This document shows, piece after piece, positions 18,163 through 33,390 of a stretch of 33,390 nucleotides of DNA (its first letter is position 1; every line of letters starts with the position of its first letter). Source of the DNA: Saprospiraceae bacterium. GTDB lineage: Bacteria > Bacteroidota > Bacteroidia > Chitinophagales > Saprospiraceae. The notes under the pieces are model-generated. The model saw only the letters and a program-made list of their open reading frames with translations, was not told the DNA's origin and did no database searches. Location: contig JAHDCJ010000029.1 in the NCBI GenBank assembly GCA_020629935.1, forward strand, positions 12,891-46,280, in the 5' to 3' direction. A program made the translations under genes and the position numbers.

Positions 18163-18768
18163 TTAGAATCGATAACCTACACTAGCAATTAATTGAGAAG
18201 GTCCAGAATCAAATCCACGTTGACCACCGAACAAATTAATGCCGTCTCCAAGCTTAGAAAGATTCCCTTCATATCGAACATCTATAGATATTTTTCCTAT
18301 ATCAACTCCAGCTCCAGCTTGAAAACCAAAATTGGTAGAATCAAAAAATGAAAGGTATTCTTCTTGGTTATCGACTTCGGTAAGATCTACATTTCGATCA
18401 AATTGCATACGTGCCATTGGCCCAACTAAAAACCGAAATTTAGAGACTTCAAAGCCTATTAACAAAGGAATATCCAGATCTTTCAAGGTACTAACAGTCA
18501 TCTCTGGTTGAATTAGAATTGGTCCTAAAGTAAAGCGCGTAAATATCCCGCCGTGAACGCCAAATCCCGCAGACTGCAATTGTTCATTTATGTTACCCTG
18601 ACCATCAGGAGTAGTATTTCGACCTGCAATAGGTCCATCAGATATCTTGGCACTTAATCCAGCTTTAACTCCTATTTTAAACACTTGAGCTTGCACAGAA
18701 GAAGCAAAGAATAATACACTAAATAAGACCAAAGATATTGTCACAAATTTCAAACTTGAATTTTTCAT
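18163..18768 (-). CDS. Outer-membrane beta-barrel protein (PorT-like)
   Basis: Signal peptide MKNSSLKFVTISLVLFSVLFFASSVQAQ, KIGVKAGLSAK, GFGVHGGIFTRF, terminal ASVGYRF. The track start 18792 is probably 8 codons too long. Confidence 0.82.
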   Translation of the reverse strand: MKNSSLKFVTISLVLFSVLFFASSVQAQVFKIGVKAGLSAKISDGPIAGRNTTPDGQGNINEQLQSAGFGVHGGIFTRFTLGPILIQPEMTVSTLKDLDIPLLIGFEVSKFRFLVGPMARMQFDRNVDLTEVDNQEEYLSFFDSTNFGFQAGAGVDIGKISIDVRYEGNLSKLGDGINLFGGQRGFDSGPSQLIASVGYRF

Positions 18769-18879
18769 ACTGCATAATTTTTGGATTAACAAATAAAGAT
18801 AGTTGTGTTAATTCTATAATCATGCCATTCTAAGTTTTAAGGGTGGATTTTACAAAAGTTGGACAAATAAAAAATGGGA

Positions 18880-19203
18880 TTAGGCACGCATGCCAACAGG
18901 CTCTTTCAAAGAGCTGAAATGAAAATTATGGATTTGCCATACATCCGTAGGACGTGTGTATACAAAGTTAAATTGAATCGAAACCAATTCAAATTCTAAC
19001 ACATATATACATTTGATAAACAACTCCTCAATCTTTTTTATCTCAAGTAGTTTTTGTTTAACAAATAGACCAGTAGCCCCTTCAAATGTTTTGAGAAGGT
19101 ACTTCATTTTTTCTACCAAATTTTCGGGTGATAATAAACCGTCGCGCGAATGGGAATTTACTAATTCCGCAGCTAGCGCATACTCAATTTTCTGCAAACT
19201 CAT
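18880..19203 (-). CDS. Hypothetical protein, possibly NTF2-like fold
   Basis: 107 aa ORF from ATG, C-terminal pattern FNFVYTRPTDVWQIHNFHF resembles NTF2-like strand ends. Family unassigned. Confidence 0.5.
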   Translation of the reverse strand: MSLQKIEYALAAELVNSHSRDGLLSPENLVEKMKYLLKTFEGATGLFVKQKLLEIKKIEELFIKCIYVLEFELVSIQFNFVYTRPTDVWQIHNFHFSSLKEPVGMRA

Positions 19204-19428
19204 CGTATTTTTATTGAAGTTATAATGTCCTTCAATTTATCTGGAAATTGTACGAGTTAATTCATGCAGTTAGTTTATGGATTTTGAATAGTTTTTAATT
19301 AGCTTTGAAACAAATATTTGCTCAAATAGCTTCTTATATCTTCATTTAACGTGTACTTTCTTCATTTGTTATAATTTTCTTATTTTTTTTTGCATTTTTA
19401 TTTATTCCATACAAGAAAACTTTATACT

Positions 19429-20325
19429 ATGCGATTTCATTCCTTTTCTTTTCTAGTCATTATACTTTTGCTGTTTTTTACTGGATGTAAATCAGACGTA
19501 TCAAAGACCAATACGGCTACAAATGATTCCAATACTACTTCACCAAAGGTAAAGACAAACCAAGAAACTCCACAATATAGTAGTCTAGCGAATGCGCTAA
19601 AAAATCCGAAAGAAGCTTTTATTCTTAAGCTAAATAATCAAAAACTAAATGAATTACCCACGGATTTAACTCAATTATCTAATCTTCAATTTCTATCATT
19701 GAAAGGGAATAATTTAAGTGAGCTTCCTGATTTCATTAAACAATTCAAACAATTAAAATACTTAAGTCTCGATGGGAATCAATTTACTGAAATTCCATCC
19801 ATCGTATATCAATTGCCTTCTCTTCGTACCTTAAGTTTAGATAACAATAAAATTTCTGAGATTCCTTCAGCCATACAATCACTTAGTAATTTACAAACCC
19901 TATACTTGGGCAGAAATCAATTGACTACCTTCCCTAATGAAGTATTAAGCTTGAAAAATTTGAATTACCTAAGTGTGAACGCCAACCAAATTCCTGATAT
20001 ACCAGAAACAATTAGCCAATTAGAAAACTTAAACACCCTTTTCGTTTGGCAAAATCAATTGGACCGAATACCTGAAAGTATTGGTGCATTAAAAGGACTT
20101 CAAAATTTTGATTGTTCAAATAACCAAATCACTTCTATTCCTGCTAGCCTTTTACAATGTAATAAACTTAGTCAATTAAATTTGAGTAATAATAAATTAA
20201 GCACCATTTCAGAAGATTTTTTTAAAGCCAATAATTTACAAAAGATCACTTTATCAAACAATCCAATTTCAAAAACTAAAATCAAAACCCTCCAAGAAAA
20301 ATATGGGAATAAACTTCAATGGTAA
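19429..20325 (+). CDS. Leucine-rich-repeat lipoprotein
   Basis: Signal MRFHSFSFLVIILLLFFTGC (lipobox FTGC), then consecutive 23-residue LRRs (LSNLQFLSLKGNNLSELPDFIKQ...). The track start at 19390 is a TTG 13 codons upstream. Confidence 0.9.
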   Translation: MRFHSFSFLVIILLLFFTGCKSDVSKTNTATNDSNTTSPKVKTNQETPQYSSLANALKNPKEAFILKLNNQKLNELPTDLTQLSNLQFLSLKGNNLSELPDFIKQFKQLKYLSLDGNQFTEIPSIVYQLPSLRTLSLDNNKISEIPSAIQSLSNLQTLYLGRNQLTTFPNEVLSLKNLNYLSVNANQIPDIPETISQLENLNTLFVWQNQLDRIPESIGALKGLQNFDCSNNQITSIPASLLQCNKLSQLNLSNNKLSTISEDFFKANNLQKITLSNNPISKTKIKTLQEKYGNKLQW

Positions 20326-20392
20326 TTTTTTACCCACCAATTTAGAAATAAATTGCATCTTTTAAATAATTGTATCACGAAACGCCAGAAAT

Positions 20393-23300
20393 ATGAATTG
20401 GAATAACCCCAAAAACCAGATCCTATATTTTATCCTGTTTATCTTATTAGCTACTTTACTTTCCAACTGTAGTTCGATGTCGAAAGAACGAATTTCTGTG
20501 GAAGATCCATCGAAAACTTTTAATTGGGAAGCGGATGAAGGCATGACTGATTCCGATGAAGATGGAGTTATGGATATGATGGAATCTGAATCATTGGAAA
20601 ATGTTCAGTCTGCGCCGCCGCCACCTCCTCCACCAGCTCCAATGATTGAAGAAGTAGAAGAAGAAATTTATTTCTTTGACGCTGAAACGGCACAACCTTC
20701 TACCGTAGTGGAAAATCAAAAATTAGAAGTCATTGAAACCAAAAAAGAAACCACATCTAAAACTTGGAAAAGAAAAGGACGCCATGTAAATAGCGCCAAA
20801 GTTTTTGTAGGAGATCAAGATACCCTTGTTAATAAAGGATGTCAAGTAGCCATTAAAATTGATGGATTTAGAGTACGGGTTTTTATGGATTGTTATTTTT
20901 ATAATGATAAAGATCGACAGTTAGAAGGTACCTTTAAATTGGTTTTGCCCACAGGAGCTAGCCCTTATTATTTTGCTTTTGGAGAAGAAGCCATTTTAGA
21001 TAAAGACAAAGATTTTGTGCTTCCAATAACCGACAAATATAATACGGCTTTAGACTTGAGTGTAGCTGCTATTCGAAATCGCCCCTTAAACGATAAGGCT
21101 ACATTAAAAGAAGCACGGCTAGTCCCTAAAGAAAAAGCAGCTTTTGCTTATGCGGAAACCACAAGAAGAAAAATTGATCCATTATTGGCCGAATGGACAG
21201 GTTCTGACATATTCAATTGTAGAGTCTTTCCTCTTCTTCCAAACAAAGTACATCGCATTGCATTTGGATACGACCTTAACCTGAATCAGGTAAATGAAAC
21301 GACTAAAAGTTTATATTTCCCCTTACCAGAAACGCGCCCTTTAGAAGTAGATATTAATATGTCTGACCTAGGACAAATATCCGCAAATATGAAAGGGCAA
21401 AAGATTGAAAATAAAAAAGAAAATGGACGATGGCTAGCTCATTTAGACAATCCTAAATTAGATGCTATTCAAATTTTCCAAACAGATGCGCCTACTACAA
21501 TTATTCATGGCAAACAAAGTAACGACTCCTATTTTGCTACAAATATTAATCCACAACTTCCAGGATTAGATGCCAATCAAATTGCTAATCAAGCCGTCTT
21601 TTTAGTGGATGTTTCTTTAAGTTCTAATCCAGACAAATATAATGTATGGCTTAAAGCATTAGAAGCCATTTTGAAAGAAAACGAGAACGATATTAAGCAA
21701 TTTGCTATCCAATATTTTAATGTCGAAAGTTTTTGGTGGAAGACCGAATGGGTCAATAATACCGCTGCAAATCGAACAGCTGCGCTTGCCTACGCCAATA
21801 GTCTTTCATTAGAAGGAGCATCGGATTTAGGTTCGGCTATTTTACAATTAAAAGAAGTGGATTTTATTTCTAAAAATAGCAAAGCGAAAAATGTTTTTCT
21901 TCTTAGTGATGGAAGTATCACTTGGGGAGAGGATCGTCCGTATGCCCTTTCCGAATATGTACAACCCTTAGATAAATGGTTTGCTTTTCAAACGGGAATG
22001 GCAGAAACTAATCGAGCTATTTTAGCCCATCTTACTCGAAATTCGGGAGGAGCTATATTTTCTATAGCCAACGAAAATCAAATAAAAAAAGCAAGTACCG
22101 CATTTAAAAAACAGGCTTGGAAAATTGAATCTTTATCTTTAGAAAACACAAAAGATTTGTTAATTGAAGGACGTCCTTTATATCTTTATCAAGGCCAAAA
22201 CATTACGGTAGTAGGAAGAGGAACGCCTAGTAAAGGAAGCCAATTAAAATTGACGGTTTCTAATAATGGAACCAATAAAACGATAAGCATTCCTTTAAAG
22301 GAATCTCTCCAATCGAATTTGGCGGCAAGGACTTATGGACAATATGCTACGGAGCATTTAGAAGAGTTTGAAGATGCGACTTTGGATTTTTCTACTGCTT
22401 ATAGTACGCATTTTCGAGTACCGGGAAAAACCTGTTCTTTTTTAATGTTGGAAAGTGAAGAAGACTATGCTCGATATAATATCAAACCCGAAACCAATGC
22501 CTATGTCGTTCGATCTTCCTCGGTCAATTCATTGGTTGACGAAGTCTTAAAAAATGTAAAAAAGACCTTGGGCAATGCCAAACTAAACTTTATCCATTGG
22601 GTAGAAAAGTTGGAAAAATTTGAAGGTCTAAATTTTGAAATTCCTACGGCCTTTCAACTCATTTTAGATCAAACACCAGAGGCTAATTTTAAAGTAGCAC
22701 CTGCCTTTTTAAATTCTGCTTTAAAACTAAAGAAACATCAATCTTCGGAGTTGACTAAAGCACTTAATGAAAAAGAATTAGATTACGATGTGATTACCAA
22801 AGCAGCTAAAAATATACAAGAAGATTTTGATAAATCCGCTTCTTTAAAAATATTGAGTTCATTGATAGAAAAGAATCCGGGCAATGGTGTTTTGGCAAGA
22901 GATGTCGCCTTTTCGGCCATGGAATATAATTTATCTTCCCAAGCTTATCATTTGTTGACTAAGGTCATTCGCAACCGTCCTTATGAACCCCAAAGCTATA
23001 CGGCAATCGCCCAAGCTTTGACTGATATTGGAAAAATTGATCTCGCCATTTTTTATTATGAAGTCGCTTTATCTGGACAATGGGATCAACGATTTGGAGC
23101 CTTTCGTCAAATTGCAGCTTTAGATTATTCTAGACTGTTAAGATTAATTGAAGAGGGAAAATATGAAGTAAGTTTCCCTGATTATATTTCTTCAAGAAAA
23201 CAATCTATAGACGATGAATTTAATTTTAAATCTGCTGATTTAGTGATTACCATTACTTGGAACACGGACAATACTGATATAGATTTACACGTCAAAGAGC

Positions 23301-23617
23301 CTACTGGAGAAGTTTGTTATTATTCATTCCCCAAAACAAAAATTGGAGGTTTAATGTCGGATGATGTAACCCAAGGCTATGGTCCAGAAATGTATATTTT
23401 ACAAGATGCCAAAGCAGGAGAATATTTAGTGGGAGCCAACTATTATGGCTCGGATCGATCACGAACCTCTGTTCGCTCTAAAGTATTCACTAAGGTGTAT
23501 AAAAACTTTGGATCAAAGAATGAAGAATTGATAGAAAAGGTAATCAGCCTTGGAGAAGAAAAACAAATGGTCGATATTTTTGAGATTAAGATTAAAGAAG
23601 ATAAGAAGGATAATTAG
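20393..23617 (+). CDS. VIT domain / von Willebrand A domain lipoprotein with C-terminal DUF2135-like domain
   Basis: Lipobox LLSNC; VIT-like region (GCQVAIKIDGFRVRVFMDCYFYNDKDRQLEGTFKLVLP...KEKAAFAYAE); vWA segment with MIDAS-like DVSLS; TPR-like stretch; C-terminal ITWNTDNTDIDLHVKEPTGEVCYYSFP...YFVGANYYGS-like DUF2135 block. Confidence 0.87.
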   Translation: MNWNNPKNQILYFILFILLATLLSNCSSMSKERISVEDPSKTFNWEADEGMTDSDEDGVMDMMESESLENVQSAPPPPPPPAPMIEEVEEEIYFFDAETAQPSTVVENQKLEVIETKKETTSKTWKRKGRHVNSAKVFVGDQDTLVNKGCQVAIKIDGFRVRVFMDCYFYNDKDRQLEGTFKLVLPTGASPYYFAFGEEAILDKDKDFVLPITDKYNTALDLSVAAIRNRPLNDKATLKEARLVPKEKAAFAYAETTRRKIDPLLAEWTGSDIFNCRVFPLLPNKVHRIAFGYDLNLNQVNETTKSLYFPLPETRPLEVDINMSDLGQISANMKGQKIENKKENGRWLAHLDNPKLDAIQIFQTDAPTTIIHGKQSNDSYFATNINPQLPGLDANQIANQAVFLVDVSLSSNPDKYNVWLKALEAILKENENDIKQFAIQYFNVESFWWKTEWVNNTAANRTAALAYANSLSLEGASDLGSAILQLKEVDFISKNSKAKNVFLLSDGSITWGEDRPYALSEYVQPLDKWFAFQTGMAETNRAILAHLTRNSGGAIFSIANENQIKKASTAFKKQAWKIESLSLENTKDLLIEGRPLYLYQGQNITVVGRGTPSKGSQLKLTVSNNGTNKTISIPLKESLQSNLAARTYGQYATEHLEEFEDATLDFSTAYSTHFRVPGKTCSFLMLESEEDYARYNIKPETNAYVVRSSSVNSLVDEVLKNVKKTLGNAKLNFIHWVEKLEKFEGLNFEIPTAFQLILDQTPEANFKVAPAFLNSALKLKKHQSSELTKALNEKELDYDVITKAAKNIQEDFDKSASLKILSSLIEKNPGNGVLARDVAFSAMEYNLSSQAYHLLTKVIRNRPYEPQSYTAIAQALTDIGKIDLAIFYYEVALSGQWDQRFGAFRQIAALDYSRLLRLIEEGKYEVSFPDYISSRKQSIDDEFNFKSADLVITITWNTDNTDIDLHVKEPTGEVCYYSFPKTKIGGLMSDDVTQGYGPEMYILQDAKAGEYLVGANYYGSDRSRTSVRSKVFTKVYKNFGSKNEELIEKVISLGEEKQMVDIFEIKIKEDKKDN

Positions 23618-30474: not shown

Positions 30475-31185
30475 ATGAAAACACTGCCTTCTATATATCT
30501 TATCTTACTTTTCTTTTTCTCTTGTAATCAAAGTAATGAAAAACAAACTAAACCCTCCGAAATGAAAAAAGAGCATACAAGCACTACGAACTCAACGAAT
30601 GAAGAAAATACCTTACCCAAAGAATTATTGATCAAACTTGGAATGGATGTAGACGAAGGCCACCCCCTAGGATTAAAAATTGGAGATCAAGCCCCTACTT
30701 TTTCTACTCAAGATCACATGGGGAATGCATTGGAATTAAATCAATTATTGAAACAAGGACCAGTGGTACTTCAGTTTTATAGAGGCGATTGGTGTCCAGT
30801 TTGTAATCGATATTTAAGTGCATTTCAGGATTCTGTCCAATTAATAAAAGATCGAGGTGCCCAAGTCATTGCCATCACACCTCAAACCAATGAATATATT
30901 AAAAAGACCATAGCCATAACAAATATTGAATATCCTGTTATAGCGGATAAAGGCTATTCGATCATGAAAAACTATAAGGTTTTATTTAAAGTGACCGAAT
31001 CATATGATGCGATGATTAAAGATAAATTACAAGCAGATATTGCTTCTTCTAATAATGATAAAACACCATATTTACCTGTACCCGCCACTTATGTTATTGG
31101 GAAAGATGGCAAAATCAAATATGTACATTTCAATCCGAAGTATCAAGATCGAGCCACTGTAAGCGATATATTAGCACATCTTTAA
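30475..31185 (+). CDS. AhpC/TSA-family (redoxin/peroxiredoxin-like) lipoprotein
   Basis: Signal MKTLPSIYLILLFFFSC, LKIGDQAPTFSTQDHMGNALELNQLLKQGPVVLQFYRGDWCPVCNRYLSAFQ. Confidence 0.9.
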   Translation: MKTLPSIYLILLFFFSCNQSNEKQTKPSEMKKEHTSTTNSTNEENTLPKELLIKLGMDVDEGHPLGLKIGDQAPTFSTQDHMGNALELNQLLKQGPVVLQFYRGDWCPVCNRYLSAFQDSVQLIKDRGAQVIAITPQTNEYIKKTIAITNIEYPVIADKGYSIMKNYKVLFKVTESYDAMIKDKLQADIASSNNDKTPYLPVPATYVIGKDGKIKYVHFNPKYQDRATVSDILAHL

Positions 31186-31393: not shown

Positions 31394-32308
31394 ATGCAGG
31401 AAAAAGCGAGTGAGCAAAACAATAATAAAGGTCAAACTAAACCTTCATTATCTGGTTTGCAGGAAGAAAACAGGATATTGAGAGATCGGAATGCATTGTT
31501 GATAGAACAACAAACTAAGCAAGCCCATGTAATAGCTCAGGCTTTAAAGGATCGTCAAAATATTGAACGAAGATTATTTGAAAATTTTAAATCTCTGATT
31601 GAAGAACGCAACACCAATCAGGAAATTCGAAATAGAACGGAAGAATTATATCATATTTTGGCATGTGATTTAAAAGCGCCTTTACGTCAATCGGCAGCTC
31701 TTTTGGATTTATTTCAGATTCGATCTGGAGTCGATTTAGATCAGCGTTCTTTAAATTATTTAAATCAAATAAAATCGCACGTACATGAAGTAAGCAATAA
31801 ACTAAATGATTTATTGTTTGTGTCTTCTATTACCAAAGTAAAAGAACGCGATGAAATTATAGATTTAAATCTTATCGTTCGTGATATTATAGCCCAAAAG
31901 AAAGAAGAACTTTCAGCCTTAGATGGTCAAATTATTTATAGTGAATTGCCTTTAATAAAGGCTTGCAAATCGCAAATCAATTTTATTTTCAAGCAATTAA
32001 TTGAAAATGCGATTAAGTTTCGAAGAAGTTTTCCTCCAGTAATTACGATTAGTTGTACTGGAAAAAATTCAAAATATATCTTTGCTATTCAAGATAATGG
32101 GATCGGTATCAACCCATCTGAAAGGGCAGGTATTTTTAGTCTATTCAAAAAGATATCTACAGGAAAAGAATATGCAGGTACTGGTGTAGGATTATTTGCT
32201 TGTCAAAAAATCATAGAATTACATAATGGGAAAATTTGGTATTCGTCTAATGAAAACGGAACGACATTCTTCTTTTCAATACCTGATTGTTTAATTCAAT
32301 TATCATAG
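31394..32308 (+). CDS. Soluble sensor histidine kinase-like protein (HisKA-like and HATPase_c) with degenerate H-box
   Basis: N-terminal coiled coil without TM; H-box region ELYHILACDLKAPLRQ; N box QLIENAIKFRR; G1 IQDNGIGI; G2 GTGVGLFACQKIIELHNGKIWY. Confidence 0.9.
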   Translation: MQEKASEQNNNKGQTKPSLSGLQEENRILRDRNALLIEQQTKQAHVIAQALKDRQNIERRLFENFKSLIEERNTNQEIRNRTEELYHILACDLKAPLRQSAALLDLFQIRSGVDLDQRSLNYLNQIKSHVHEVSNKLNDLLFVSSITKVKERDEIIDLNLIVRDIIAQKKEELSALDGQIIYSELPLIKACKSQINFIFKQLIENAIKFRRSFPPVITISCTGKNSKYIFAIQDNGIGINPSERAGIFSLFKKISTGKEYAGTGVGLFACQKIIELHNGKIWYSSNENGTTFFFSIPDCLIQLS

Positions 32309-33198: not shown

Positions 33199-33271
33199 CT
33201 AAAATAAAAGAGGTCGGTTTTTAGCTTTCCGTTTTAGAAGGGGCTTATTTGTTGTTGGAATATTGGAGTTT

Positions 33272-33390
33272 TTGGTGCGATTGCGGGGCAATCGGGAAGT
33301 TGGGGAGGAAGAGGGAATTGGTGCGATTGCGGGGCAATCGGGAAGGTTGTGAGGAAAGAGGGAATTGGTGCGATTGTGGGGCAATCGGGA
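33272..33390. repeat. 46-47 bp tandem repeat, at least 2.5 copies, continuing past the window edge
   Basis: Units begin TTGGTGCGATTGCGGGGCAATCGGGAAG at 33272, 33318 and 33365. Each carries the stem CGATTG / CAATCG. Confidence 0.88.

Follow-up and report, generated by a model that had tools for sequence, protein, structure and literature searches.

The gene at positions 31,394-32,308 (forward strand) of the window, the whole 33,390-nucleotide stretch of Saprospiraceae DNA analyzed here, encodes a protein of 304 amino acids in which the phospho-acceptor histidine of histidine kinases is replaced by a cysteine (Cys91), while the motifs of the ATP site are kept. The best explanation, to which a probability of about 0.6 is assigned, is that the product is a soluble pseudo-histidine kinase of the DivL type, non-catalytic and acting by binding. 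It combines a DHp-CA fold with a non-His acceptor, the combination by which a pseudo-histidine kinase is recognized, and this protein, found in one genome only, most likely belongs to that already known kind of signaling protein. A pseudokinase or scaffold was also the first option put forward in an earlier sequence-only reading of this DNA, and it is the option best supported by the analyses below.

Judged from its sequence and predicted fold, the protein is small and soluble, has a DHp-CA core and is related to the histidine kinases of bacteria. Pfam identifies a HATPase_c domain (73 bits, 2.7e-20), and the AlphaFold model (mean pLDDT 88) consists of a long N-terminal helix or coiled coil (residues 19-72 by DSSP; 31,448-31,609), the two DHp helices (residues 76-111 at 31,619-31,726 and residues 117-148 at 31,742-31,837) and then the CA fold, which extends from the N box to the end (residues 192-297; 31,967-32,284) with every box intact. 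Foldseek matches of the model in the PDB include HK853, ZraS, RpBphP2, RetS and DivL, and phmmer aligned the cores of RpBphP2 (8f71) and HK853 (2c2a/3dge) to residues 73-297. No sensor domain is recognized by Pfam N-terminal of the DHp, where the coiled coil stands alone without a Pfam domain, and the highest 19-residue Kyte-Doolittle mean of 0.83 reveals no transmembrane stretch, both as the sequence-only reading had it. The Pfam HisKA domain (PF00512) matches 42 of the 43 kinases aligned in this study, the Cys91 protein being the sole exception (E <= 0.01). An active HisKA histidine kinase was therefore rejected as an identification, the phospho-acceptor His and the HisKA match both being missing in spite of the HATPase_c boxes present.

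The H-box of the protein reads ...EELYHILACDLKAPLRQ..., with the codon TGT at 31,664-31,666 specifying Cys91. In the phmmer alignment to the PDB, which covers DHp and CA, this cysteine occupies the phospho-His position of HK853 and RpBphP2. The same column was read in an alignment of 43 sequences, comprising the protein, its own-genome paralogues and its best relatives in the order, and contains His in 42 and Cys in this one alone. The replacement noticed in the sequence-only reading, by comparison with the AAHDIKAPLR of the kinase at the left edge of the window (a motif confirmed in the sequence), is thus borne out, as is the intactness of the N, G1 and G2 boxes. Conserved residues are D92, P96 and R98 near the acceptor, N205 (N box), D234/G236/G238 (G1), F248/F251 (F box) and G262/G264/G266 (G2). 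An apparent Cys in one paralogue (L008) and an apparent Ser in another (L009) were discarded as alignment slips, since both read ...HDLKAP.... The use of another residue as acceptor had also been proposed, and a candidate, His87 (31,652-31,654), does lie four residues, or one helical turn, ahead of Cys91 in the same helix, with the ATP site and the acidic D92 intact. A kinase kept active by His87 is nevertheless improbable: column 87 is usually Tyr in the family, no alignment gap shifts His87 into the acceptor column, where it is Cys91 that aligns, and the acidic residue that comes after an acceptor adjoins Cys91 and not His87.

Restricting the substitution to a single codon, as had been done initially, proved too narrow. 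In DHp helix 1, eight of 13 near-invariant columns are altered (L76Q, N79R, L82T, F85L, A86Y, Y87H, S90A and H91C), as against a maximum of four in any other of the 43 aligned kinases, while in the CA domain five of 35 are altered, which is inside the range of the other kinases (Fisher p = 0.002 for helix 1 versus CA). Helix 1 has a mean identity of 0.25 to the other members of the set, compared to 0.41-0.59 for every other kinase, while that of the CA domain (0.37) falls within the normal range of 0.28-0.44. Because all altered columns are at or N-terminal of residue 91, the DLKAPLR beyond it is canonical and the CA domain is normal, the alignment indicates that divergence is confined to the first half of the acceptor helix, sparing the post-acceptor segment and the nucleotide-binding domain. 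This divergence might reflect a new coupling of input through the coiled coil rather than catalytic loss. It also bears on the quality of the sequence. The source genome is a draft (5.0 Mb, 160 contigs, 94.7% complete), which leaves room for an assembly or base-calling error at 31,664-31,666; such an error is hardly credible, however, as a change from CAT or CAC to TGT requires at least two substitutions and seven neighboring near-invariant residues of helix 1 are altered too.

Searches for relatives returned ordinary kinases. Protein searches of 398 genomes of the same family (298, then 398) and 399 of the same order, with one genome covered at the genus level, gave no orthologue; the best matches are 33-40% identical, have larger architectures and carry the acceptor His. 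A scan of GTDB contigs gave distant kinases only, viral contigs no match, and plasmids no orthologue, with identities of 28-33% among the matches listed. The next best paralogue in the genome itself is 35% identical, and all own-genome paralogues with a readable acceptor column have His, bar a Phe-bearing hybrid kinase on contig 117. Neither the genomes of the family and the order nor the scanned GTDB contigs yielded a conserved clade sharing the Cys substitution. The pattern CD-x-KAP matches in nine of 298 family genomes, and only the match in the window's own genome sits inside a kinase. CD-x-K-[EAD]-P-x-R occurs twice in the 399 order genomes, once in a 63-aa non-kinase frame and once in the Cys91 protein. 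As the latter is the sole occurrence in a kinase frame, the Cys H-box is, on these pattern counts, not a chance motif.

Gene decay is the serious rival. An orphan kinase deprived of sensor, acceptor and function, its CA motifs not yet eroded, would fit the failure to find an orthologue in the 398 family or 399 order genomes, the lack of a sensor domain and of a partner gene nearby, and the long end branch of the protein in the tree (2.55 versus a median of 0.95; the placement of the protein in this tree is not resolved). Decay is nonetheless regarded as unlikely. The reading frame is open over all 304 codons with a codon use resembling that of the neighboring genes, and neutral decay should hit the CA domain as well as helix 1, whereas the CA boxes are all intact and helix 1 alone has diverged. 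A non-catalytic protein acting by binding is preferred over a decaying one.

The genomic neighborhood contains a gene for an AhpC/TSA-type redoxin with a WCPVC motif (30,475-31,185, forward strand), which had invited a redox interpretation of Cys91. Its product carries a signal sequence that includes the lipobox-like LLFFFSC and should for that reason be located outside the cytosol. Probably this is a thiol protein that is exported and has no tie to the kinase gene; an operon of the two was rejected in view of the 208-bp gap and the predicted lipoprotein product; the redoxin gene is probably a separate unit. A scan for sigma-70-type promoters, which does not cover Bacteroidota promoters, gave a background level. 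Among 18 window proteins scanned for context none has a response-regulator domain, and a partner of this type would therefore be encoded elsewhere. Elsewhere in the window, a leucine-rich-repeat protein adjoins a VIT/VWA-domain protein on the same strand (19,390-23,617), and between a SIS-domain gene and a glycosyltransferase a short tandem repeat of approximately 'GGTGCGATTGCGGGGCAATCGGGA' occupies 33,250-33,390 and continues beyond (L061), running into an N stretch just past the window end.

A function for Cys91 itself, either in redox switching or as an acceptor forming phosphocysteine, could be argued from its location precisely where the acceptor belongs, with the adjoining D92 and the ATP site both intact, and from the redoxin gene upstream. 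The redoxin, however, is a predicted lipoprotein of another compartment encoded 208 bp away, so that the redox idea of the sequence-only reading is left without support. Furthermore, Cys91 is the single Cys of the DHp, with no second Cys in helix 1 or 2, no relatives were found in which its conservation would show, and the literature search gave no paper on a kinase with a Cys H-box; the papers on cysteine phosphorylation that it did give appeared to concern other things than the H box. A functional Cys91 is improbable, and its specific form, in which the Cys at the acceptor site is phosphorylated by the intact CA domain or serves as the gate of that domain, is likewise improbable. If true, a Cys91 serving as acceptor or redox gate would represent new signaling chemistry for the histidine-kinase fold.

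The Phe-bearing exception among the paralogues (contig 117, positions 18,438-20,399; L057, 939-2900) is a REC-PAS-HisKA-HATPase-REC hybrid with Phe at the phospho-His position. Matches to it (E <= 1e-80) occur in 83 out of 189 genomes of the family, a count which includes some members of a His-bearing sister group. Among the 56 sequences read at the acceptor site, the relatives being L086-L140, 50 have Phe, two Tyr, one Ser, one Glu and two His, and the two with His (L054 and L139) look like the canonical sister group. The motif is S-F-H/N/Q-I-R-T-P-L, position +1 varying between His, Asn and Gln. The N, G1 and G2 boxes are eroded in many sequences, and the Asp of the receiver survives in 49 of 56 sequences for REC1 and in 56 of 56 for REC2. 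On these grounds the hybrid looks like a conserved family of pseudo-histidine kinases with live receivers. Different genera share and conserve its substitution, which sets it apart from the Cys of the window protein, and since the window protein is private to one genome, the Phe-type hybrid is the better model for how kinases become allosteric partners and merits a study of its own.

If the Cys91 protein is a pseudo-histidine kinase, it would retain a DHp bundle that dimerizes and a CA domain that binds ATP but lack a usable phospho-acceptor, and because of this lack the usual autophosphorylation and phosphotransfer would not be possible. We infer that it binds ATP and that any output would pass through a partner. 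One option is DHp pairing with a second histidine kinase present in the cell, in which the nucleotide-loaded CA domain would possibly phosphorylate the His of the partner or hold the partner in one state; another is a response regulator docked via the retained DLKAPLR surface, as in DivL. In DivL of Caulobacter, Tyr550 takes the place of the acceptor His while the other boxes (N, G1, F and G2) remain, and the protein, devoid of kinase activity, works by binding or sensing DivK~P (PMC4211667). The Cys91 protein shares with it the DHp-CA fold, a replaced acceptor His and intact N, G1, F and G2 boxes, and a DivL structure (4q20) is among its PDB matches. In contrast to DivL, it has no PAS or membrane part, is not conserved in relatives, is without a known DivK or CckA partner and is nearer in sequence to the canonical HK853 and RpBphP2 kinases. 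It was rejected as a DivL orthologue, its acceptor being Cys and not Tyr and its N-terminus a coiled coil only instead of PAS-rich. The HK853 and RpBphP2 cores have the fold and the ATP-site motifs in common with it, but their helix 1 is canonical and bears the phospho-His. Its closest homologues, which are HisKA kinases of the HDLKEP type from the same order (L021 and L067 among them; 38-40% identity over DHp-CA), likewise differ: all have His, their helix 1 is canonical and their N-terminal parts are longer. Acceptor-less histidine kinases show signaling enzymes turning into allosteric partners. Being private to one genome, the Cys91 protein is a modest case, in which the two parts are sharply separated, helix 1 being diverged and the ATPase intact, with Cys and not the Tyr of DivL at the acceptor position. 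The pairing with another kinase proposed here has a precedent in an evolved ChrS pseudokinase of C. glutamicum, which arose via a frameshift in the CA domain and heterodimerizes with the paralogous kinase HrrS (PMC9491836), showing that a catalytically dead kinase can act by heterodimerization. The Cys91 protein is the reverse of ChrS, which lost its CA domain, in that here the CA domain is intact.
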